A stretch of 64,000 nt of DNA from Gammaproteobacteria bacterium (GTDB taxonomy: Bacteria; Pseudomonadota; Gammaproteobacteria; Steroidobacterales; Steroidobacteraceae). The stretch's first letter is position 1. Each line of letters starts with the position of its first letter. The DNA is taken from NCBI GenBank assembly GCA_003164785.1, contig PLUE01000050.1:124001-188000 (forward strand), read 5' to 3'. The notes under the pieces are model-generated. The model did no database searches. It saw only the letters and a program-made list of their open reading frames with translations, and was not told the origin of the DNA. Shown one piece after another: positions 9,735 through 45,737 of the stretch. Position numbers and translations under genes: made by a program.

Positions 9735-9757
9735 CATTGCCCATCTCAAGGAAGCCC

Positions 9758-10972
9758 ATGATTTCGACGATCCTCATCATCGGCGGCGGCCAGGCCGGCG
9801 CGCAGGCCATCGACACCCTGCGACGCGAGGGCTTTAAAGGCCGCCTCATTTTGGTGAGCGACGAACCCCAACTGCCCTACCAACGTCCACCGCTGTCCAA
9901 GAAGTTCCTTTCCGGGGAGTTGGCCGCCGAGCGACTGCTGTTCCGGCACCAGTCCTTCTATGACGACCATGGGATCGAACTCAAACTCGGCGTGCGCGCG
10001 ACCCAATTGGATGCGGCCGTCCGCAAGGTCGTGTTGTCCAACGGCGAGGAAGTCGTCTACGACCGCCTGCTCCTGTGCCTCGGCGCCATGTCGCGGCAGC
10101 TAACCTGTCCCGGCGCCGATCTGCCCGGCGTCCACTACTTGCGCACCATCGCGGACGTTCCCCAGATTCAATCGGCACTGAAGCCCGGCACGCGCGCCGT
10201 CATCATCGGCGGCGGCTACATCGGCCTCGAAACCGCCGCCACCGCCCGCAAGATGGGCTGCCTCGTCACCGTGCTCGAAATGGCCGACCGCGTCATGAAT
10301 CGCGTGGTCGCCTCGAACGTGTCCGAGTACTTCGCTCACGAACACCGCACCCAGGGCGTCAACATCATCTGCAACACCCGGGTCGTGCATTTGGACGGCA
10401 CCACGAAAGTCGAGCGCGTGGTGTGCGCCGACGGGACCTCGTATGAGGCCGACCTGCTCGTCGTCGGCGTCGGCGCCGTGGCCAATATGCAGCTCGCCAG
10501 CGACGCCGGACTCAAATGCGAGAACGGCATCGTCGTCGATGAATACTGCCAGACCAGCGACCCCGCCATTTATGCGGCCGGCGACTGCACTTATCACCCC
10601 TCGCTGCGCTTCGACATGCGCGTACGGCTCGAGTCCGTCGACAACGCCTTCGAGCAAGCCAAGACCGCCGCGCTCAACATACTGGAACGCCCGACCATTC
10701 ATGACCGCGTGCCCTGGTTCTGGTCCGACCAGTTCGACAACAAATTGCTCATCGTCGGGCTGTCCCAGGGACACGACCTCCAGGTCACGCGCGGCGACCC
10801 GGCCACGCGCAGCTTCACCGTCTGCTACCTGAAAGGCGGCGAATTGATGGCCGTCGAGGCCATCAACCATTCGAAGGACTACATGGCCGCCCGCAAGCTG
10901 ATCGCGGATCGCGCGCGGCCGAACATCGATAAATTGGCCGACCCACAGGTTGCCCTCAAAGAAGCCTTCTGA
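9758..10972 (+). CDS. FAD-dependent ferredoxin reductase (AlkT/CamA/ThcD type)
   Basis: The 404-residue flavoprotein moves electrons from NAD(P)H to a [2Fe-2S] ferredoxin. It has an N-terminal FAD-binding dinucleotide fold (IIGGGQAGAQAI), the PYQRPPLSKKFLSGE signature of the rubredoxin/putidaredoxin reductase class, and a second NAD-binding fold (AVIIGGGYIGLETAA). The FAD motif IYAAGDCTYHP and a C-terminal reductase domain follow. The ATG at 9758 has AAGGA at good spacing. The ferredoxin gene starts inside its stop codon (TGATG), so the two are translationally coupled. Its oxygenase partner is not adjacent; cytochrome P450s or the Rieske oxygenases at 35.8-39.1 kb are candidates. Confidence 0.9.
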   Translation: MISTILIIGGGQAGAQAIDTLRREGFKGRLILVSDEPQLPYQRPPLSKKFLSGELAAERLLFRHQSFYDDHGIELKLGVRATQLDAAVRKVVLSNGEEVVYDRLLLCLGAMSRQLTCPGADLPGVHYLRTIADVPQIQSALKPGTRAVIIGGGYIGLETAATARKMGCLVTVLEMADRVMNRVVASNVSEYFAHEHRTQGVNIICNTRVVHLDGTTKVERVVCADGTSYEADLLVVGVGAVANMQLASDAGLKCENGIVVDEYCQTSDPAIYAAGDCTYHPSLRFDMRVRLESVDNAFEQAKTAALNILERPTIHDRVPWFWSDQFDNKLLIVGLSQGHDLQVTRGDPATRSFTVCYLKGGELMAVEAINHSKDYMAARKLIADRARPNIDKLADPQVALKEAF

Positions 10973-11298
10973 TGGCGCAGGTCACCGTGGTGTTCGTGCA
11001 GCCCGACGGCTCGCGGCGCGAAATCGTCGCGCCCGTCGGCATCACCCTGATGGAAGCCGCGCGCCAAAACAACGTCTCCGGCATCGTCGCCCAATGCGGT
11101 GGCGCCTGCGCCTGCGCGACCTGCCATGTCTACGTGAAGGAATCCTGGCTGCCCAAACTCCAACCACCCGAGGACATGGAAGAAGGCATGCTCGAAACCG
11201 CCTGGGAGCCGCGCGCCAACAGCCGGCTCAGCTGTCAGGTGCAAATAACCGCGGCGCTCGACGGACTCGAGGTCACCGTGCCGGAACACCAAGCCTAG
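10972..11298 (+). CDS. [2Fe-2S] ferredoxin, adrenodoxin/putidaredoxin type
   Basis: The 108-residue electron carrier has cluster ligands C42, C48, C51 and C88 in the adrenodoxin pattern C-x5-C-x2-C...C (QCGGACACATCHVYV and RLSCQV). An extra cysteine, C46, sits within the cluster loop. The acidic helix PPEDMEEGMLE is the usual partner-binding surface in this class. It is translationally coupled to the upstream reductase gene and forms a complete two-component electron-transfer chain lacking only its terminal oxygenase. Confidence 0.92.
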   Translation: MAQVTVVFVQPDGSRREIVAPVGITLMEAARQNNVSGIVAQCGGACACATCHVYVKESWLPKLQPPEDMEEGMLETAWEPRANSRLSCQVQITAALDGLEVTVPEHQA

Positions 11299-32549: not shown

Positions 32550-33653
32550 ATGAAAATCGGCGTCCCCAAAGAGATCAAGGTTCATGAGTATCGGGTGGGA
32601 TTGGTGCCGGCGGGAGTTCGGGAACTGGTCGATGCCGGACACGAGGTGCTGGTTCAGACCGGCGCCGGCGCCGGCATCGGCTTCGATGATTCGCATTACC
32701 AGGCCGCGGGAGCCAACATCGCCGCCGCCGCCGCCGAAGTTTTCGCCGCCTCCGACCTCGTCGTCAAGGTCAAGGAACCGCAAATCGCCGAGTGCCGGCA
32801 GCTTCGCCAGGGACAGGTGCTGTTCACGTACCTGCATCTCGCCGCCGACCGCGAACAAACCGACGCGCTGCTCGCCTCGAACGCCACCGCCATCGCCTAT
32901 GAAACCGTGACCGCGATCGACGGCTCCCTGCCCCTGCTCACCCCGATGAGCGAAGTCGCGGGACGCATGTCCGTACAGGTCGGCGCCAACTGCCTGCAGA
33001 AGGCCAACGGCGGCTTCGGCGTGCTGCTCGGCGGCGTGCCGGGCGTCGCGCCGGCCAAGGTCGTGATACTCGGCGGCGGCGTCTCGGGCACGCATGCCGC
33101 CGAGATGGCGGTGGGACTGCGCGCCGACGTCACCATCGTGGATCGCTCGGTGAAGCGGTTGCGCGAACTCTCCTCGCTATTCGGCAGCCAGCTGAAGACC
33201 GTGTATTCGACAGCCCAGGCCATCGAAGAGCGGGTGCGGGACGCGGATCTCGTCATCGGTGCGGTGTTGATCGCCGGCGCCGCCGCCCCGAAGCTCGTGA
33301 CCCGGACGATGGTCAAGACCATGAAGCCGGGCACGGTTCTGGTCGACATCGCCATCGACCAGGGCGGCTGTTTCGAAACCAGCCGCCCGACCACCCACGC
33401 CGAGCCCACATTCCTGCTGGATGGCGTGATCCACTACTGCGTGACCAACATGCCGGGCGCGGTGCCCCGCACCTCGACCTTCGCGTTGACCAACGCGACG
33501 CTTCCCTACGTCAAGTCGCTCGCCGACGGCTGGGAGCAAGCGATCGCACGGGACCCCGGATTGGCGTGCGGCCTCAACGTGCACGCGGGAAAACTCACCC
33601 ACGAAGCCGTGGCGAACGCCCTGAGCCTCGGGTTCCACGCGTACCGCGTCTAG
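32550..33653 (+). CDS. ald: Alanine dehydrogenase
   Basis: The 367-residue NAD-dependent enzyme interconverts L-alanine with pyruvate and ammonium. The N-terminus MKIGVPKEIKVHEYRVGLVP is typical. K75 (VVKVKEP) and H96 (FTYLHLA) are the catalytic pair. The NAD site is VVILGGGVSGTHAAEMA, and MPGAVPRTSTFALTNATLPY is a family signature. The ATG at 32550 was chosen over upstream in-frame codons because it matches the conserved N-terminus. It is divergent from an Lrp-type regulator, implying induction by alanine. Confidence 0.95.
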   Translation: MKIGVPKEIKVHEYRVGLVPAGVRELVDAGHEVLVQTGAGAGIGFDDSHYQAAGANIAAAAAEVFAASDLVVKVKEPQIAECRQLRQGQVLFTYLHLAADREQTDALLASNATAIAYETVTAIDGSLPLLTPMSEVAGRMSVQVGANCLQKANGGFGVLLGGVPGVAPAKVVILGGGVSGTHAAEMAVGLRADVTIVDRSVKRLRELSSLFGSQLKTVYSTAQAIEERVRDADLVIGAVLIAGAAAPKLVTRTMVKTMKPGTVLVDIAIDQGGCFETSRPTTHAEPTFLLDGVIHYCVTNMPGAVPRTSTFALTNATLPYVKSLADGWEQAIARDPGLACGLNVHAGKLTHEAVANALSLGFHAYRV

Positions 33654-33794
33654 AATCCGAACGCGGACCGGGCGCGGACCGTGAGCCCGCAGGACGCGCC
33701 CCGGTGCGGCCCGGCGCGCTGCGCCCAGGTTGCTACTGTACGATCGATCAATTACTCTCGCCTCCCTCACCGGCCGCAACCTTGAGGATGTGCA

Positions 33795-35855
33795 ATGGCG
33801 CGAAATCCACGTTTCAACATACTGTTCGAGCCGGTGCGCATCGGCCCGGTGACCGCTCCCAACCGCTTTTATCAGGTCCCGCACGCCAGCGGCATGACGA
33901 ATGCCCTGCCGCAGGTGCGCGCCAAATTTCGTGGCGTGAAGGCCGAAGGGGGCTGGGGCGTGGTGTGCACCGGGGCGGTGTCGATCCATCCAAGCTCCGA
34001 TGATTCGCCGCTGCCGTTCGCATCGCTCTGGGACGACAAGGACATTCGCGCGCATGCCCTGATGACGGACGCCGTGCACGAACACGGTTCGCTCGCCGGC
34101 GTCGAACTCTGGCACGGGGGCGCCTGCACCTTGAATCGCACCAGCCGGCTCGCGCCCATCTCGCCGTCGGGCATGCCGTGGTTGTCCACGCACCTGGGCT
34201 TCATGGGTAATCTACGGCCGCGCAGCATGGATGCCGCGGACATCCAGGATCTGCTCAAGTGGCAGGCGGCGGGCGCGCGGCGCGCCATGCAGGCGGGTTT
34301 CGACATCGTCTACGTCTACGCCGGCATGGGTTACCTGCCCTACGAGTTCCTGCTGCCGGAATACAATCACCGTACCGACGCGTACGGCGGCTCGATCGAG
34401 AATCGCGTACGCCTGGTGCGCGAACTGCTGGAGGTCACCCGCGATGCCGTCGGCGACAAATGCGGCGTCGCGCTGCGCATCAGCCTGGAGGAATTGCGCG
34501 GCAAGCCGGGCCGCGATGCGCCGTCCGAAGCGCACGAAGTCGTGGCCTTGCTGGCCGACATTCCCGATCTGTGGGATGTGAAGATGGATTCGAGCCCCAC
34601 CGACTGCGCGCCGTCGCGCTTCGCGTCCGAAGGCAGCCACGAACCGGTCATCAACTTCGTCAAGTCGCTCACCACGAAGCCCGTGGTCGGCGTCGGCCGC
34701 TTCACGTCGCCCGATGTCATGGTGTCGCAGGTGAAGCGCGGCATCCTGGACCTCATCGGCGGTGCGCGTCCGTCCATCGCCGATCCGTTCCTGCCACGCA
34801 AGATCGACGAAGGGCGCGAGCATGAGATCCGCGAGTGCATCGGCTGCAACATCTGCATTTCGAGCTGGCATGACGGCGTGCCGGTGCGCTGCACGCAAAA
34901 TCCGACGGCGGGCGAGGAATGGCGCCGCGATTGGCATCCCGAGCGCTTCGCGCCCCCCACGAGCGACGCCAATGTCCTCATCGTCGGCGGCGGCCCGGCC
35001 GGTCTCGAGTGCGCGGTGACGCTGGCGCGTCGAGGCTACCAAGTGACGCTCGCCGATGCAGCCAAGGAATTCGGCGGCCGGCTGCGTTTCGAGACGCGGC
35101 TGCCAGGGTTGGCAACCTGGGGACGCGTGTCCGATTGGCGCCTGAGCCAGCTGCGCGAGCGGCCGAACGTGAATCTGTATCCCGGCAGCGAGCTGGGCGT
35201 GGACGACATCCTCGGCTTGGAACATAGTCACGTGGTCATCGCCACAGGGGCGCGTTGGACCAAAATGCTGTTTTCGACTCTGGAGTTCCCGGTGGGCGAG
35301 CTCGACATTCCCTGCGTCTATACGCCGGATGATATCGCCGCTGGCGTCGTACCCCGGGGCCCGGTGGTCGTGTTCGACTTCGACAACTACTACATGGCTG
35401 GCGCCATTGCCGAGCAGCTCGCCCCGCAGGTCGGGGACGTGACCTACGTAACCACCGCCGGCAATGCCTCGGCTTGGACTTTCATGACCAACGAATTGCC
35501 GTTGGTGCATCGCGCCCTGGGCAACGCGGGCGTGCCCATTCACACCCTGCAGCGGGTAACGGCCTTCGATGGCGAATCGGTCACCTTGTCCGACGTCTAC
35601 AGCGGCGCCGAGAAGCGCCTGCCATGCCGCTCGCTCGTCATCGTCGGCATGCGCAAGCCCCGCGCGGAGCTCCACGACGCCCTCCTGCACCGGGCTGCGG
35701 ACCTACAGGCAGCCGGCATCGGCTCCGTCACCCGCATCGGGGATTCGCTGGCGCCGGGTGCGATCGTGCACGCAGTACACAGCGGCCACCGCTTCGCCCG
35801 CGAGTTCCAGGCCCCGCCCCAGGAACTGCCGTACAACCGAGATTTTCCGATATGA
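33795..35855 (+). CDS. DgcA/trimethylamine dehydrogenase-like iron-sulfur flavoprotein
   Basis: The 686-residue fusion has an Old Yellow Enzyme FMN barrel (residues about 5-345, starting FNILFEPVRIGPVTAPNRF), a [4Fe-4S] site with C348, C351, C354 and C366 (CIGCNICIS), and FAD/NAD-binding domains (VLIVGGGPAGLE, 394-405). The architecture is that of trimethylamine and dimethylamine dehydrogenases and of DgcA, the dimethylglycine demethylase component, whose length is almost identical. It probably removes N-methyl groups oxidatively from a methylated amine. Stachydrine/N-methylproline relatives are an alternative. Its stop overlaps the Rieske gene start (ATGA). Confidence 0.88.
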   Translation: MARNPRFNILFEPVRIGPVTAPNRFYQVPHASGMTNALPQVRAKFRGVKAEGGWGVVCTGAVSIHPSSDDSPLPFASLWDDKDIRAHALMTDAVHEHGSLAGVELWHGGACTLNRTSRLAPISPSGMPWLSTHLGFMGNLRPRSMDAADIQDLLKWQAAGARRAMQAGFDIVYVYAGMGYLPYEFLLPEYNHRTDAYGGSIENRVRLVRELLEVTRDAVGDKCGVALRISLEELRGKPGRDAPSEAHEVVALLADIPDLWDVKMDSSPTDCAPSRFASEGSHEPVINFVKSLTTKPVVGVGRFTSPDVMVSQVKRGILDLIGGARPSIADPFLPRKIDEGREHEIRECIGCNICISSWHDGVPVRCTQNPTAGEEWRRDWHPERFAPPTSDANVLIVGGGPAGLECAVTLARRGYQVTLADAAKEFGGRLRFETRLPGLATWGRVSDWRLSQLRERPNVNLYPGSELGVDDILGLEHSHVVIATGARWTKMLFSTLEFPVGELDIPCVYTPDDIAAGVVPRGPVVVFDFDNYYMAGAIAEQLAPQVGDVTYVTTAGNASAWTFMTNELPLVHRALGNAGVPIHTLQRVTAFDGESVTLSDVYSGAEKRLPCRSLVIVGMRKPRAELHDALLHRAADLQAAGIGSVTRIGDSLAPGAIVHAVHSGHRFAREFQAPPQELPYNRDFPI

Positions 35856-37000
35856 GCGAGCAACTCGAGCGCACCCTGCCGACCAGTTGGTACCGCAGCG
35901 CCGACATATTCCGCATCGAGAAAGAGCGCATATTTTGCCGCGAATGGTTCGCTGTCTGCCGCGACGAGGAGCTGCCGAAGCCGGGCGATCACCGGGTGCT
36001 CGATATCCTGGGCGAGAGCGTTCTGCTGGTGCGCAACCGCGAGGGATCGCTCAAGGCCTTCTACAACGTGTGCCGGCACCGGGGCGCAAAGCTGTGCCGT
36101 AGCGCCGACGACACGGTCGCGGCGGGGCGCGTGGCGCTGCCCGGTGGCATGACCGCAGGCCGCCTGATCGTCTGCCCATACCACCAGTGGTCCTATGATT
36201 TGAACGGGGCGCTGGTCGCGGCTCCGCATCTGGGCCCGGGCACCGGCTTCGACAAGAGCGAGTTTCACCTGTATCCCGTGGGCGTGGAGACCTGGGGCGG
36301 ATTCGTGTTCCTGCACCTGACGCCGGCCGATGCCAGCCCGCTCGCCGCGCAATTGGGCGGCATCCCGGAGCGCCTGCAACGCTACCCGCTCGCGGGTCTG
36401 CGCATCGGCGCGACGATCCAGTACGAGGTTCGGGCGAACTGGAAGATCATCTGCGAGAACTACAACGAGTGCTATCACTGCGGCGGCGTGCACCCGGAAT
36501 TGTGCGCGGTGGTGCCCTCCTTCCGCGACGCCGGCGGCGCGAACTTGGACTGGAACCGCGGCGTGCCGCATCGGGACGGCGCCTACACGTTCACGCACAG
36601 CGGCACGACCGCGCGCCGCGCCTTTCCCGGACTGGACGCCGACGAGCAGATCCGGCACAAGGGCGAACTGCTGTATCCCAACGTATTTCTGAGTGTGGCC
36701 TGTGATCACGTGGCGGCTTTCATTCTTCGCCCCCGCTCGGCGGAACGGACCGACATCACCTGCCACTTCCTGTTCGAAACCCATGAAATCGACAAGCCCA
36801 CGTTCGATCCATCGGATGCGGTCAGGTTCTGGGACCTGGTCAATCGCCAGGACTGGACGGTGTGCGAGTCGGTCCAGGAAGGTATTCGCGCACGAGTCCA
36901 CGCACACGGCTATTACGCCCCCATGGAAGACTGGAATCTCGACATCAGGCGCTACGTGACCGATCGAATCGCCGCACATGTACCGCGCGAGACCGTCTGA
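35852..37000 (+). CDS. Rieske non-haem iron oxygenase, alpha subunit (GbcA/carnitine-type)
   Basis: The 382-residue oxygenase has Rieske [2Fe-2S] ligands C74, H76, C108 and H111 (VCRHRGAKLC and VCPYHQWSYDL). Its mononuclear iron site has H209 and H214 (CENYNECYHCGGVHPELC), with a third ligand expected near FWDLVNRQD. The ENYNECYHC...HPELC context is shared with oxygenases of quaternary amines such as GbcA (glycine betaine) and Stc2 (stachydrine). That suggests N-demethylation of a betaine upstream of the DgcA-like enzyme. Translation is coupled to that gene. No dedicated reductase gene is adjacent. Confidence 0.88.
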   Translation: MSEQLERTLPTSWYRSADIFRIEKERIFCREWFAVCRDEELPKPGDHRVLDILGESVLLVRNREGSLKAFYNVCRHRGAKLCRSADDTVAAGRVALPGGMTAGRLIVCPYHQWSYDLNGALVAAPHLGPGTGFDKSEFHLYPVGVETWGGFVFLHLTPADASPLAAQLGGIPERLQRYPLAGLRIGATIQYEVRANWKIICENYNECYHCGGVHPELCAVVPSFRDAGGANLDWNRGVPHRDGAYTFTHSGTTARRAFPGLDADEQIRHKGELLYPNVFLSVACDHVAAFILRPRSAERTDITCHFLFETHEIDKPTFDPSDAVRFWDLVNRQDWTVCESVQEGIRARVHAHGYYAPMEDWNLDIRRYVTDRIAAHVPRETV

Positions 37001-37065
37001 CCGCGGCCGCGGAATGCGGTAGATCGCTCTGGCGCCCAAGGGAGGCAGGCGTTCGGCTATGCTCC

Positions 37066-37089
37066 GTTATAATTAAACCAGCAAGGGAA
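37066..37089. promoter_or_regulatory. Candidate promoter/operator of the TetR gene
   Basis: TATAAT at 37068-37073 is a consensus -10 element just upstream of the TetR-type gene. It sits inside CCGTTATAATTAAACCAGC, which resembles CCGTTCAATAAGATAGC at 37849-37865 before the second Rieske gene. The shared core could be the operator of the regulator, making it autoregulated. No good -35 hexamer is visible. Confidence 0.35.
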
Positions 37090-37093
37090 TGGC

Positions 37094-37774
37094 ATGGCAG
37101 GCAAACGAACGATTCCAAAATTTCACCGCGAGACTCCCGCGGTTCGTCGCGAGGCATTGGTGGAAGCAACCCTGCGGTGCCTGAAGGAATATGGACATGA
37201 GGGCGTGTCGGTACGCCGCATCAGCGCGGCGGCGGGGGTATCGATCGGGCTGATCAACCATCATTTTCCCAGCAAGGCTGGCCTCGTGGCCGAAGCCTAC
37301 GAGACGCTGGCGTTGTCGCTGCAGGATTCGACCCGGCTCCAGGCCGAGAACCGCGCGTTATCGCCGCGCGACCGGCTGAGCGGATTCTTCCGCGCCTCAT
37401 TCGCTCCGGAAATCATCGATCCGGCGCTGTTCAACGTGTGGTTGGTCTTCTGGAGCATGGTGGCCCATTCGCCGGAAATGCGCGCCGTCCACGACCGCAC
37501 CTATGGCAAGTACCGCTCGATGTTGGAGTCTCTGCTGGGCCATCTCTCGCAGTCCGATGGTGCGCCGCAATTCAAGCTGCGGCCCGCGGGCATCGCCCTG
37601 TCCGCCTTGCTCGACGGGCTGTGGGTGGAATTGAGTTTGAGTCCGGGCGTATTCAAGCCTCGCGAGGCGATCGCGTTGTGCGAGGACTGGGTCAACGCGC
37701 TGTGCAACGGCGCATTTCCGCGCTTGCTGCGCAAGCCTGCCGCCGTCAAGGGCCCCGGCCGCCGCAAGCCATAG
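37094..37774 (+). CDS. TetR-family regulator, BetI-like
   Basis: The 226-residue repressor has an N-terminal helix-turn-helix: TPAVRREALVEATLRCLKEY and VSVRRISAAAGVSIGLINHH followed by FPSKAGLVAEAYETL. The C-terminal ligand domain (FNVWLVFWSMVAHSPEMRAV and LDGLWVELSLSPGVF) matches BetI-type proteins that respond to choline or related quaternary amines. The start is an ATG at 37094 with AAGGGA upstream. It sits between two Rieske oxygenase genes, so it probably controls this catabolic cluster in response to the amine substrate. Confidence 0.87.
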   Translation: MAGKRTIPKFHRETPAVRREALVEATLRCLKEYGHEGVSVRRISAAAGVSIGLINHHFPSKAGLVAEAYETLALSLQDSTRLQAENRALSPRDRLSGFFRASFAPEIIDPALFNVWLVFWSMVAHSPEMRAVHDRTYGKYRSMLESLLGHLSQSDGAPQFKLRPAGIALSALLDGLWVELSLSPGVFKPREAIALCEDWVNALCNGAFPRLLRKPAAVKGPGRRKP

Positions 37775-37840
37775 CCGGCCCATGACCGGCTCGCGGGTCC
37801 GGCGCCGGTCGGGCGAGGTGCATCGCGCCCGCCCTCTTGT

Positions 37841-37865
37841 TATACTACCGTTCAATAAGATAGCA
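37841..37865. promoter_or_regulatory. Candidate promoter/operator of the second Rieske gene
   Basis: TATACT (37841-37846) preceded by TTGT is a plausible -10 region, followed by CCGTTCAATAAGATAGC (37849-37865). That sequence shares its CCGTT...AATAA core with the segment before the TetR gene. It lies 14-38 bp upstream of the oxygenase start. Confidence 0.35.
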
Positions 37866-37878
37866 GGACACACCGCTC

Positions 37879-39075
37879 ATGGATGCAAGGCGCTCACAAC
37901 ATGCCCCGACGACCTCATCCGGTCTCGACGACTTCAGCCTTCCTGGATGGATCTATCGGGATGCCGAGTTTCTCGAGGCGGAGAAGGAACGGGTATTCGC
38001 CACCTCGTGGCAGATCATGTGTCATCTCAGCGACATTCCGAAGCCCGGCGACTACCACACCCTGGATTTTCTCGGCGAGCCGTTGGTTGCGGTGCGCGGC
38101 CAGGAGGGCGGGGTCAAGGCCTTCTTCAATGTCTGCAGGCATCGCGCGGCGCGAATCCTCGATGGAAGCAGCGGGCGCTGCGCCGGCCGGATTGTCTGCC
38201 CCTACCACGCATGGACTTACGATCTCGACGGGCGGCTCACCGCCGTGCCGCATCGCAAGGAGTTCAACGATTTTTCGCTGGGCGACTACGGGCTCAAGCC
38301 GGTCGAGACCGAGATCTACAAGGGCTTCGTGTTCGTTCGCTTGAAGCCGGGCTTGCCCAGCGTCGCCGAGATGCTCGCGCCCTATGAGCATGAAATCGCC
38401 GACTACCGTCTCGAGGAACTGCAGCCCATCGGCCGGGTGACGCTGCGCATCCGCCACGTGAACTGGAAGAACGTCACCGACAATTACTCCGACGGCATGC
38501 ACATCAACGTCGCTCACCCCGGGTTGACCCGCTTGTTTGGCACCAGCTACGGCATCGAGGCGCAGCCGTGGGTGGACAAGATGTTCGGCTACCTGCGCGA
38601 TGTACCGTCCTCCCAGCGCTCGGAGCGGATGTACCAGGCGATTCTGCCGCGCGCTGAACATCTCCCGGACGCGCGCCAACGCCTGTGGATCTACTTCAAG
38701 CTCTGGCCGAACGTGGCATTCGACATCTATCCGGATCAGGTCGATTTCATGCAGATGATTCCGATCTCCCCCACCGAAACGTTGATCCGCGAGATCGCCT
38801 ATGCCCACCCCGACGGGCGACGGGAAATGCGCGCGGCGCGCTACCTCAACTGGCGCATCAATCGCGCGGTGAGCGTGGAGGACAAGGGACTGATCGACCG
38901 CGTGCAGACCGGCATGGGCTCCCGCAGCTTCAGTCCCGGCCCGCTGGGTCGCAACGAGGTTTCTCTGCGCAGTTTTGCGCATCGCATGCGCGAACTGATA
39001 CCGGAAAGCCGGCTCGATCGCGCGCCCCCACCCGGCTGGCTGCAGCGTCATGACATGAGGATTCCACGTGGCTGA
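37879..39075 (+). CDS. Second Rieske non-haem iron oxygenase, alpha subunit
   Basis: The 398-residue oxygenase has Rieske ligands C86, H88, C107 and H110 (VCRHRAARIL and VCPYHAWTYDLDGRL). The mononuclear site H208/H213 is in DNYSDGMHINVAHPGL. The active-site motif differs clearly from that of the first Rieske enzyme (no ENYNECYHC), so it probably acts on a different intermediate or substrate. It resembles aromatic-ring and general Rieske oxygenase alpha subunits, and no beta subunit is encoded nearby. Its stop overlaps the start of the following flavoprotein gene by 8 bases. Confidence 0.87.
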   Translation: MDARRSQHAPTTSSGLDDFSLPGWIYRDAEFLEAEKERVFATSWQIMCHLSDIPKPGDYHTLDFLGEPLVAVRGQEGGVKAFFNVCRHRAARILDGSSGRCAGRIVCPYHAWTYDLDGRLTAVPHRKEFNDFSLGDYGLKPVETEIYKGFVFVRLKPGLPSVAEMLAPYEHEIADYRLEELQPIGRVTLRIRHVNWKNVTDNYSDGMHINVAHPGLTRLFGTSYGIEAQPWVDKMFGYLRDVPSSQRSERMYQAILPRAEHLPDARQRLWIYFKLWPNVAFDIYPDQVDFMQMIPISPTETLIREIAYAHPDGRREMRAARYLNWRINRAVSVEDKGLIDRVQTGMGSRSFSPGPLGRNEVSLRSFAHRMRELIPESRLDRAPPPGWLQRHDMRIPRG

Positions 39076-40693
39076 TTCATCCCTGCGCGATGTCGTCATC
39101 ATTGGCGGCGGACACAACGGCCTGGTGTGCGCGGCCTATCTTGCCTCGGCCGGCCTGAAGGTCACGGTGCTCGAACGCCGCTGCGTCGTCGGCGGCGCCG
39201 CCGTCACCGAGGAATTCCACCCCGGGTTCCGCAACTCGGTCGCCGCCTACACCGTCTCGCTGCTCAATCCGAAGGTCATACGGGATCTCGATCTGCCGCG
39301 ACATGGATTGCGCGTGGTGGAGCGCAAACTGTCGAACTTCCTGCCGCTGGATGACGGCCAATACCTGAAGGTGGGCGGCGGCAAGACCGAGCAGGAGGTC
39401 GGCAAGTTCTCCCAACGCGATGCTGCGCGGCTCGCCGAATATGGCGAGCGGCTGGACCTCATCGCCGACGTATTGCGCGATCTCGTCCTCGAGACACCTC
39501 CCAATGTCACCGCCGGCAGCTGGCTCGAAGCGCTGCCCGAACTGCTGAAAAGCGCCAAGCTCGGCAAGCGAATCGCCAAGCTCGACATGGCCATGCGCCG
39601 GGAACTGTTGGATCTGTTCGTCAAATCGGCCGGCGACTATCTCGACACGTGGTTCGAGAGCGCGCCCATCAAGGCCGCCTATGGGTTCGACGGCATCGTC
39701 GGCAATTATGCGAGTCCGTATGCGGCGGGTTCCGCGTACGTGCTGCTGCACCATGTGTTCGGCGAGGTGAACGGCAAGAAGGGCGCGTGGGGCCACGCCA
39801 TCGGCGGCATGGGTGCGATCTCACAGGCCATGTCGAAGGCGGCTGCCGAGCGCGGCGTCGAGATCCGCGTGTCGAGCCCCGTGCGCGAAGTCATCGTGGA
39901 ATCCGGTCGCGCCGTCGGCGTGGTGCTGGAAAGCGGCGAGGCGATCCGCGCGCGCAGCGTGGTGTCGAACCTCAATCCCAAGTTGCTGTATGGCAAGCTG
40001 ATCGATGCATCGGTACTCGAGCGCAATTTTCGCGAACGCATGCAGAACTGGCGCTGCGGATCGGGCACCTTCCGCATGAACGTGGCGCTGTCGGAGCTGC
40101 CGGATTTCACCGTGCTTCCCGGCAAGACGCTGGCGGAGCATCACACCTCCGGCATCATCATGGCGCCCAGCCTCGCCTACATGGATCAAGCCTGCCTGGA
40201 TGCGAAGGCCGGCGGCTGGTCGAAGCGGCCCATCGTCGAAGTGCTGATCCCCTCGACGCTGGACGACAGCCTCGCACCCGCGGGCCAGCATGTCGCGAGC
40301 CTGTTCTGTCAGCACGTCGCACCGGTGCTTCCCGATGGCGCGTCCTGGGACGACCATCGCGAGCAGGTCGCCGACGTCATGATCGATCTCGTGAACAGTC
40401 ATGCGCCGAATTTCAAGGCCTCGGTGCTGGGGCGGCAGATCATGAGCCCGCTCGATCTCGAGCGCACCTTCGGACTCATCGGCGGCGATATTTTCCATGG
40501 GGCGCTGAGTCTGGATCAGCTGTTTTCCGCGCGGCCCATGCTGGGCCACGGCGATTATCGTGGGCCGCTGAAAGGTCTGTACATGTGCGGCTCGGGGACG
40601 CACCCCGGCGGCGGCGTCACCGGCGCACCAGGACACAACGCCGCGCGCGAAATCGTCGCCGACTTTCGGCGCGGCCGGTTGAAGCAGGCCTGA
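39068..40693 (+). CDS. PYROXD2/phytoene-desaturase-like FAD oxidoreductase
   Basis: The 541-residue flavoprotein is of the amine oxidase/CrtI superfamily. It has a FAD-binding fold near the N-terminus (DVVIIGGGHNGLVCAAYLA, residues 8-26), CVVGGAAVTEEFHPGFRNS, a substrate domain and the C-terminal FAD motif LYMCGSGTHPGGGVTG. It matches the bacterial relatives of human PYROXD2 more closely than carotenoid desaturases. No carotenoid genes are present. The GTG at 39068 lies within the end of the upstream Rieske gene. An oxidation or desaturation step on the amine-derived carbon skeleton is plausible but unproven. Confidence 0.85.
   Translation: MADSSLRDVVIIGGGHNGLVCAAYLASAGLKVTVLERRCVVGGAAVTEEFHPGFRNSVAAYTVSLLNPKVIRDLDLPRHGLRVVERKLSNFLPLDDGQYLKVGGGKTEQEVGKFSQRDAARLAEYGERLDLIADVLRDLVLETPPNVTAGSWLEALPELLKSAKLGKRIAKLDMAMRRELLDLFVKSAGDYLDTWFESAPIKAAYGFDGIVGNYASPYAAGSAYVLLHHVFGEVNGKKGAWGHAIGGMGAISQAMSKAAAERGVEIRVSSPVREVIVESGRAVGVVLESGEAIRARSVVSNLNPKLLYGKLIDASVLERNFRERMQNWRCGSGTFRMNVALSELPDFTVLPGKTLAEHHTSGIIMAPSLAYMDQACLDAKAGGWSKRPIVEVLIPSTLDDSLAPAGQHVASLFCQHVAPVLPDGASWDDHREQVADVMIDLVNSHAPNFKASVLGRQIMSPLDLERTFGLIGGDIFHGALSLDQLFSARPMLGHGDYRGPLKGLYMCGSGTHPGGGVTGAPGHNAAREIVADFRRGRLKQA

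Positions 40694-43508: not shown

Positions 43509-45737
<2,229 letters not shown>

Follow-up and report, generated by a model that had tools for sequence, protein, structure and literature searches.

The window analysed here, 64,000 nt of contig PLUE01000050.1 from the Gammaproteobacteria bacterium assembly GCA_003164785.1 (5.85 Mb in 75 contigs), carries five consecutive genes: a flavoprotein of the trimethylamine dehydrogenase (TMADH)/histamine dehydrogenase family, here called fpHDH; a Rieske oxygenase, Rie1; a BetI-like TetR regulator; a second Rieske oxygenase, Rie2; and a PYROXD2/CrtI-family flavoprotein. The locus is probably a recombined site, in which a two-step module for betaine-type N-demethylation (first Rie1, then fpHDH) and a separable Rie2/PYROXD2 pair stand beside one BetI-like regulator. 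The probability of this reading as a whole is put at about 0.58. All functions named below are predicted ones, because they are drawn from sequence and gene order. Two points seem to be new, namely an apparent exchange of Rie1 for a methyltransferase of the MttB family and a recurrent pairing of Rieske oxygenases with PYROXD2-like flavoproteins, each of which would broaden what is known of how betaine and methylated amines are broken down.

Rie1, fpHDH and the methyltransferase MttB25

The sample comprised 296 genomes of the order, the window genome included, together with named relatives, mostly metagenome-assembled genomes (MAGs) listed as 'Gammaproteobacteria bacterium'. Orthologs were accepted at identities of at least 62% for Rie2, 66% for fpHDH, 70% for Rie1, 73% for PYROXD2 and 80% for MttB25, an MttB-family protein of the relatives; the next relatives stood at 57% for fpHDH, 58% for Rie1 and 57% for MttB25. 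Among the 296 genomes, Rie2 was found in 20, fpHDH in 16, Rie1 in six and PYROXD2 in 36. Neighbouring genes were assigned mainly by tblastn with labelled proteins; the soxB, soxD and DMGDH-like labels were given partly by eye, and the gene caller made strand errors at some loci of relatives.

Rie1 directly follows fpHDH in all six of its close orthologs, that of the window included. Nine of the 16 fpHDH genomes have MttB25, one (G223) has neither gene, and none has both (Fisher p = 8.7e-4, with no correction for kinship). MttB25 was searched in 21 genomes, and no close ortholog was found in the six Rie1 genomes, where the best matches reached 54-57%. The gene lies directly upstream of fpHDH in five of the nine genomes (G279, G106, G213, G164 and G079) and about 3 kb from it in G243. 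The protein of locus L091 belongs to the MttB superfamily, with 701 bits against PF06253 (cut-off 25), and stays under the cut-off of the pyrrolysine MttB model TIGR02369 (266 of 525 bits). Two genera (g1 and g5) show both the Rie1 and the MttB25 state. Mutual exclusion beside the same fpHDH, seen in two genera, is therefore read as an apparent replacement of one putative first-step demethylase by another. Members of the MttB superfamily (MtgB and others) act by methyl transfer, unlike Rie1 with its predicted oxygen chemistry. Two genera in which a Rieske demethylase dependent on oxygen and a methyltransferase of MttB type seem to replace each other beside one flavoprotein make a testable case.

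The surroundings of fpHDH in relatives bear on the substrate. TmpA- and TmpB-like genes occur together in the fpHDH-Rie1 clusters L088 and L089 and in the fpHDH-MttB25 cluster L092; L086 and L087 have TmpB alone, and L085 has neither. The L088 proteins score under the curated cut-offs (TmpA 361.5 of 400, TmpB 189.9 of 300). The genes are absent from the window locus, and a pair of the same kind, likewise under the cut-offs, is located on contig C6 of the same genome. TmpA and TmpB are described as converting a trimethylated aminophosphonate to glycine betaine (PMC10574752), and an MttB-family protein (pfam06253) has been implicated in glycine betaine demethylation in the aerobe Ruegeria (PMC12478193). 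Owing to these two links, glycine betaine or a near relative is the leading candidate for the substrate of Rie1. An idea of a homarine operon was also followed; among the papers listed, none had the genes of such an operon as its subject, judged by title.

Rie1 has the marks of a group V Rieske oxygenase. Glu205 is described as the bridging residue of this group, some members of which also have Cys206 and Cys209; residue 203 divides it into enzymes of carnitine, choline and benzalkonium with Tyr or Phe (clade Va) and enzymes of glycine betaine and stachydrine with Asn (clade Vb) (PMC7948474, PMC10952381). The Rie1 motif ENYNECYHC gives Tyr203, Glu205, Cys206 and Cys209, that is, the group V residues with the aromatic residue of clade Va. 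This motif or the same core was present in all 23 Rie1-type sequences, Rie1 included, taken as sets of 10 and 13 (the second set came from 14 loci, of which L157 yielded no open reading frame (ORF) by the filter). For comparison, Escherichia coli YeaW reads DNYLECYHC, and a Rieske protein on contig C15 of the window genome reads ENNRECYHC. The closest match of Rie1 in the PDB is CntA. One tree joins Rie1 to two Vb-type sequences (98/97), with YeaW on a long branch at the other side; another unites YeaW, CntA, Vb proteins and Rie1 (100/99), with the aromatic oxygenase HcaE among them on a very long branch. The position of YeaW and CntA differs between the two trees, and long branches disturb both.

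Glycine betaine is catabolized by GbcAB together with DgcA, a TMADH-family flavoprotein. The module in the window resembles this system in that N-demethylation by a Rieske enzyme would be followed by the step of a TMADH-family flavoprotein, and differs from it in having Tyr203 rather than Asn203 and no GbcB alongside. None of the proteins compared passes the GbcA model NF058607 (cut-off 670 bits): Rie1 reaches 203.4 bits, Rie2 162.6 and the C15 Rieske protein 505.6. Because of this low score against that of the C15 protein, and of the Va residue at position 203, Rie1 is ruled out as a GbcA ortholog, and the first-pass annotation of Rie1 as 'GbcA/Stc2-like', made from the letters of the window, was too precise. 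The Rieske motifs it quoted are correct.

Full-length similarity connects fpHDH (PF00724, PF07992) with the TMADH family, its closest PDB relatives being 6l6j, 3k30, 6de6 and TMADH. The family layout is retained, with an OYE-type domain, then a Rossmann-type domain, and four Fe-S cysteines. Trp355 is also kept, but Cys30, His172, Tyr60 and Trp264, residues with roles in TMADH, are replaced by Ala, Met, Ala and Ser. Ala30, Met172 and Trp355 are found in all 19 aligned orthologs of at least 62% identity; Tyr60 is retained in some. With Cys30 and His172 replaced, fpHDH is ruled out as a TMADH or a histamine dehydrogenase. Among relatives, L085-L090 have fpHDH arranged head to head with a large gene for an M14-type zinc carboxypeptidase (assigned by Pfam on L086); in L092 it is MttB25 that faces the carboxypeptidase gene, and at L091, L093, L094, L099 and L108 a gene for a CocE-type hydrolase is found close to fpHDH.

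Rie1 would strip one methyl group from a small trimethylammonium compound by oxidation and release it as formaldehyde; by dehydrogenating the dimethylamino product, fpHDH would then yield a monomethyl amine along with another formaldehyde. In genomes that lack Rie1, the first step would fall to a methyltransferase of the MttB family. The methylated-amine role that the first-pass annotation had proposed for the whole cluster is thus retained for fpHDH and Rie1, being favoured by the group V signature, the apparent MttB exchange and the TmpA/TmpB-like neighbours.

A class-wide search of 369 genomes found Rie1 in two, both of the order. On one Rhizobium plasmid, a 45% relative of Rie1 is clustered with an fpHDH of 70% identity. 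More distant Rie1-like proteins (44-58%) were listed in 24 genomes, and 16 of their loci were examined: a PYROXD2-like gene adjoins in ten, fpHDH with an MFS gene in two, soxB- and soxA-like genes in one (L131, where they abut a 55% relative) and none of these in three.

Rie2 and the pairings of PYROXD2-like flavoproteins

The second Rieske oxygenase is of another type. Its motif is DNYSDGMH. In all 32 distinct Rie2-type sequences, that of the window among them, position 203 is Tyr or Phe, position 205 is Asp and the Cys pair is lacking; by these marks, Rie2-type proteins fall outside group V. Rie2 adjoins PYROXD2 in 15 of the 20 genomes that have it (in G054 as a piece of 59% identity where the contig ends), and the same adjacency occurs on one Sphingobium plasmid (59 and 61%). 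At four loci of other families (L012, L014, L016 and L017), the gene that comes after a Rie2 relative of 53-55% identity belongs in each case to one cluster and is dimethylargininase/arginine-deiminase-like in L016; this gives a hint of a guanidino or methylarginine substrate for those relatives.

The PYROXD2-like protein scores well below the NCBIfam cut-offs for CrtO (266.5 of 1000) and CrtI (119.9 of 238.1), and an AlphaFold2 model built with five close sequences had a mean predicted local distance difference test score of only 40.9. Its relatives were listed down to about 40% identity, and they are found beside Rieske genes of several kinds. In addition to Rie2, these include the Rie1-like genes of the ten distant loci described above, where the PYROXD2-like protein occupies the position held in the window by the TMADH-family flavoprotein. 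Paired PYROXD2-like genes followed by a gene for a GcvT-like folate enzyme form a further arrangement, seen in all five clusters of this sort that were viewed (three Alphaproteobacterial plasmids and the order members L080 and L093). The Rieske gene near these pairs is of a kind labelled Rie2' in four clusters and a 49% relative of Rie2 in L080; the plasmid clusters also include genes for an ABC transporter and an aminotransferase. The Rie2' sequences do not form one clade.

In a quick tree, the ten PYROXD2-like proteins of the Rie1-like loci, most of them from one family, form a single clade, apart from the clade of the window protein and from two clades of GcvT-linked pairs. As it is seen with Rie2, Rie2' and Rie1-like genes, the Rieske/PYROXD2-like pairing can be said to recur with several Rieske kinds. 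It is a tentative and rather unlikely suggestion that the PYROXD2/CrtI family includes an undescribed class of amine-dealkylating dehydrogenases, diversified beside Rieske oxygenases into the window clade, the Rie1-like clade and the GcvT-linked clade. Among the open-access full texts searched, none was found to join 'PYROXD2' with 'Rieske', the search being confined to that name and not extended to CrtI-like or phytoene desaturase-like ones. In the window, Rie2 and the PYROXD2-like flavoprotein would act on a substrate that is perhaps an amine.

Composition of the locus in relatives

The features of the locus are collected in Table 1. The gene order and the two junctions described in the first-pass annotation are borne out by the ORFs and Pfam domains: the TGA stop of fpHDH overlaps the ATG start of Rie1 (ATGA), the Rie2 and PYROXD2-like ORFs overlap by 8 bases, and all five ORFs are open. 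Most comparisons with Rie1 took its start as 35849, a codon ahead of the true one, which is expected to make no difference. Pfam assigns Oxidored_FMN and Pyr_redox_2 to fpHDH, Rieske and Ring_hydroxyl_A to both Rie1 and Rie2, TetR_N and the BetI-type C domain to the regulator and Amino_oxidase/NAD_binding_8 to the PYROXD2-like protein.

Table 1. Positions in the window of the five genes, the flanking gene and other features discussed
Feature	Position	Strand	Remarks
Alanine dehydrogenase (AlaDH)	32550..33653	+	TIGR00518 over cut-off; left-hand anchor of the variable site, outside the module
fpHDH upstream block TTGCTACTGTACGATCGATCAATTACTCTC	33730..33759	+	Candidate promoter/operator; recognisable in seven aligned genomes, weakest in L081
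fpHDH, TMADH/histamine-dehydrogenase-family flavoprotein	33795..35855	+	686 aa; predicted second-step demethylase
Rie1, Rieske oxygenase 1	35852..37000	+	382 aa; group V-type, putative quaternary-ammonium oxygenase
BetI-like TetR regulator	37094..37774	+	PF13977
Rie2 upstream block TTGTTATACTACCGTTCAATAAG	37837..37859	+	Four aligned genomes
Rie2, Rieske oxygenase 2	37879..39075	+	Asp-bridge type, without group V marks
PYROXD2/CrtI-family flavoprotein	39068..40693	+	GTG start; PF01593, PF13450
Ferredoxin reductase (9737-10972) and 2Fe-2S ferredoxin-like ORF (10972-11298, by eye)	9737..11298	+	Reductase HcaD-like, 368.6 bits, cut-off 450

Ten named loci with Rie2 or a relative of it were compared. 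Two of them, L009 and L011, match the window in the order of all five genes, with identities of 80-94%; owing to this synteny in two other MAGs, an assembly error is ruled out as the origin of the order. L010 has only TetR-Rie2-PYROXD2, the short contig L015 has Rie2-PYROXD2, and in the remaining six there is only a Rie2 relative of 53-56%. Of the sampled genomes of the order, 295 in addition to that of the window, none has the complete set. One conserved pathway of five genes is not supported: the full set is confined to the window genome and the two MAGs, and its parts are distributed separately.

Alanine dehydrogenase is syntenic in relatives, and what follows it varies within the genus: PYROXD2 in G269 and G182, TetR-Rie2-PYROXD2 in G225, and fpHDH-TetR-PYROXD2 in G233 and G058, with G223 alike from fpHDH onward. 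G287, of the same genus, has fpHDH-PYROXD2, and G097, of the sister genus, AlaDH-TetR-PYROXD2. What is left of Rie2 in G079 is a piece of its C-terminal part, residues 299-392 (L121 8202-8489), between a soxG-like gene and PYROXD2. As only this piece is kept, Rie2 can apparently be lost with PYROXD2 retained, and the piece is taken as a sign of loss in place.

The regulator has the BetI-type C-terminal domain (PF13977, 89.5 bits) and falls under both BetI equivalog cut-offs (TIGR03384, 114.2 of 201.3; PRK00767, 112.7 of 118), so that the earlier label 'BetI-like' holds for the domain and not for the equivalog. The two upstream blocks stand out amid diverged sequence, and in the window they share the motif ATTGAWCGRT, on the reverse strand in the Rie2 block. 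Two matches in the window compare with 0.52 expected, for a motif derived from these same two sites. The strict motif lies upstream of fpHDH in five of seven genomes and upstream of Rie2 in one of four, the window genome; it was not found upstream of labelled genes at the other loci scanned. As the motif is self-derived and rarely present at Rie2, common control of fpHDH and Rie2 is put forward as a suggestion only. A scan for promoters and terminators gave counts equal to those of shuffled sequence.

Electron supply and competing readings

No reductase gene is present among the ORFs of 33-41 kb, in agreement with the first-pass annotation, which took this absence as a hint of a new substrate. 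In the stretch read, the GbcA-like C15 Rieske gene also has no neighbouring reductase, so the absence does not itself mark a new substrate. Electrons would reach Rie1 and Rie2 from a ferredoxin and reductase encoded elsewhere. A YeaX search returned two reductases in the genome, on contigs C53 and C75; from their neighbouring genes they seem to belong to other systems and were judged unlikely partners of Rie1 or Rie2. The C53 set is presumably a dimethylamine monooxygenase, and NCBIfam gave no family for its first protein. GbcB was not found over its cut-off in any of 14 genomes tested, all of which gave weaker matches. The ferredoxin reductase at 9737-10972 is present in 12 of the 14 genomes, including some without Rie1 and Rie2, and the pair to which it belongs may for that reason be a shared electron donor acting in trans. 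It is very improbable that the PYROXD2-like protein is the missing reductase: it is repeatedly paired with Rieske genes whose labelled neighbours include no reductase, but Pfam finds in it FAD/Rossmann families over one N-terminal motif, Amino_oxidase and no ferredoxin domain, and 12 genomes hold the gene while lacking both Rie2 and fpHDH.

Several observations weigh against a betaine-type module of Rie1 and fpHDH. The main one is Tyr203, where glycine betaine oxygenases of clade Vb have Asn. The same genome also holds a better GbcA candidate, the C15 Rieske protein, which has Asn203 and directly precedes soxB-, soxD-, soxA- and soxG-like genes (L137 2299-8564, labels partly by eye). In ten of the 16 distant Rie1-like loci the partner is PYROXD2-like and not fpHDH. 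As for the exchange, MttB25 is on a different contig from fpHDH in three of nine genomes (G287, G233 and G058), G097 has MttB25 (81%) without a close fpHDH, and the Fisher value overstates independence because the genomes are related. Tyr203, Glu205 and the Cys pair would suit a CntA-like Rie1, which would split a substrate resembling carnitine or choline at its C-N bond, with release of trimethylamine for oxidation by Tmm and Tdm, both encoded over cut-off on C53, with fpHDH handling a different amine. The closest PDB match agrees with this, but identity to YeaW is 31%, no CntB is adjacent, the two YeaX-like reductases seem tied to other systems, and the partner is a TMADH-family flavoprotein. 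Methyl removal is suggested by the exchange with a methyltransferase of the MttB family, and glycine betaine by the TmpA/TmpB-like neighbours. A CntA-like function is therefore considered unlikely.

The relation between the two modules can also be read differently. They may have met by chance, with Rie2-PYROXD2 serving no amine pathway and instead, for example, the oxidation of lipids, isoprenoids or aromatics. The parts have separate distributions, and both Rie2 and fpHDH are missing from 12 of the 36 genomes with close PYROXD2, which speaks against a fixed tie. Distant PYROXD2 orthologs (L128-L130) stand among genes that look, by eye, like housekeeping ones. On three Sphingobium plasmids (L105, L106 and L109) PYROXD2 of 61-62% lies near a gene of the bile acid:sodium symporter family, with a Rie2 relative between them on one. 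Together with the lack of group V marks in Rie2, this makes a chance meeting conceivable, but doubtful in view of the amine-related company of PYROXD2-like genes: soxA/soxG in L094, fpHDH with no Rieske gene at the locus in four same-genus genomes, the Rie1-like group V genes of ten loci and the GcvT-like gene of all five clusters. At the other extreme, all five genes would form one dedicated pathway for a single uncharacterised quaternary amine, as first proposed. Three species keep the order, all six sampled genomes with close Rie1 also hold Rie2, and the upstream motif is common to fpHDH and Rie2 in the window. But fpHDH and Rie2 are both found in nine sampled genomes and lie on separate contigs in eight, being linked in the window genome only; relatives retain fpHDH-TetR-PYROXD2 or TetR-Rie2-PYROXD2 alone, and the motif is confined to one genome in four at Rie2. 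A single pathway is hence quite improbable, and two separable modules at a recombined site are preferred.

Elsewhere in the genome, Tmm, Tdm (contig C53) and a type III glutamine synthetase are all over cut-off, and of three SoxA-type proteins two are over and one just under. Given the Tmm, Tdm, SoxA-type and TmpA/TmpB-like genes, the organism appears to be equipped for methylated amines in general. Further along the window, at 43509-45737 on the minus strand, an acetyl-CoA synthetase-like ORF ends in a long lysine- and alanine-rich tail that by eye resembles histone H1 repeats.

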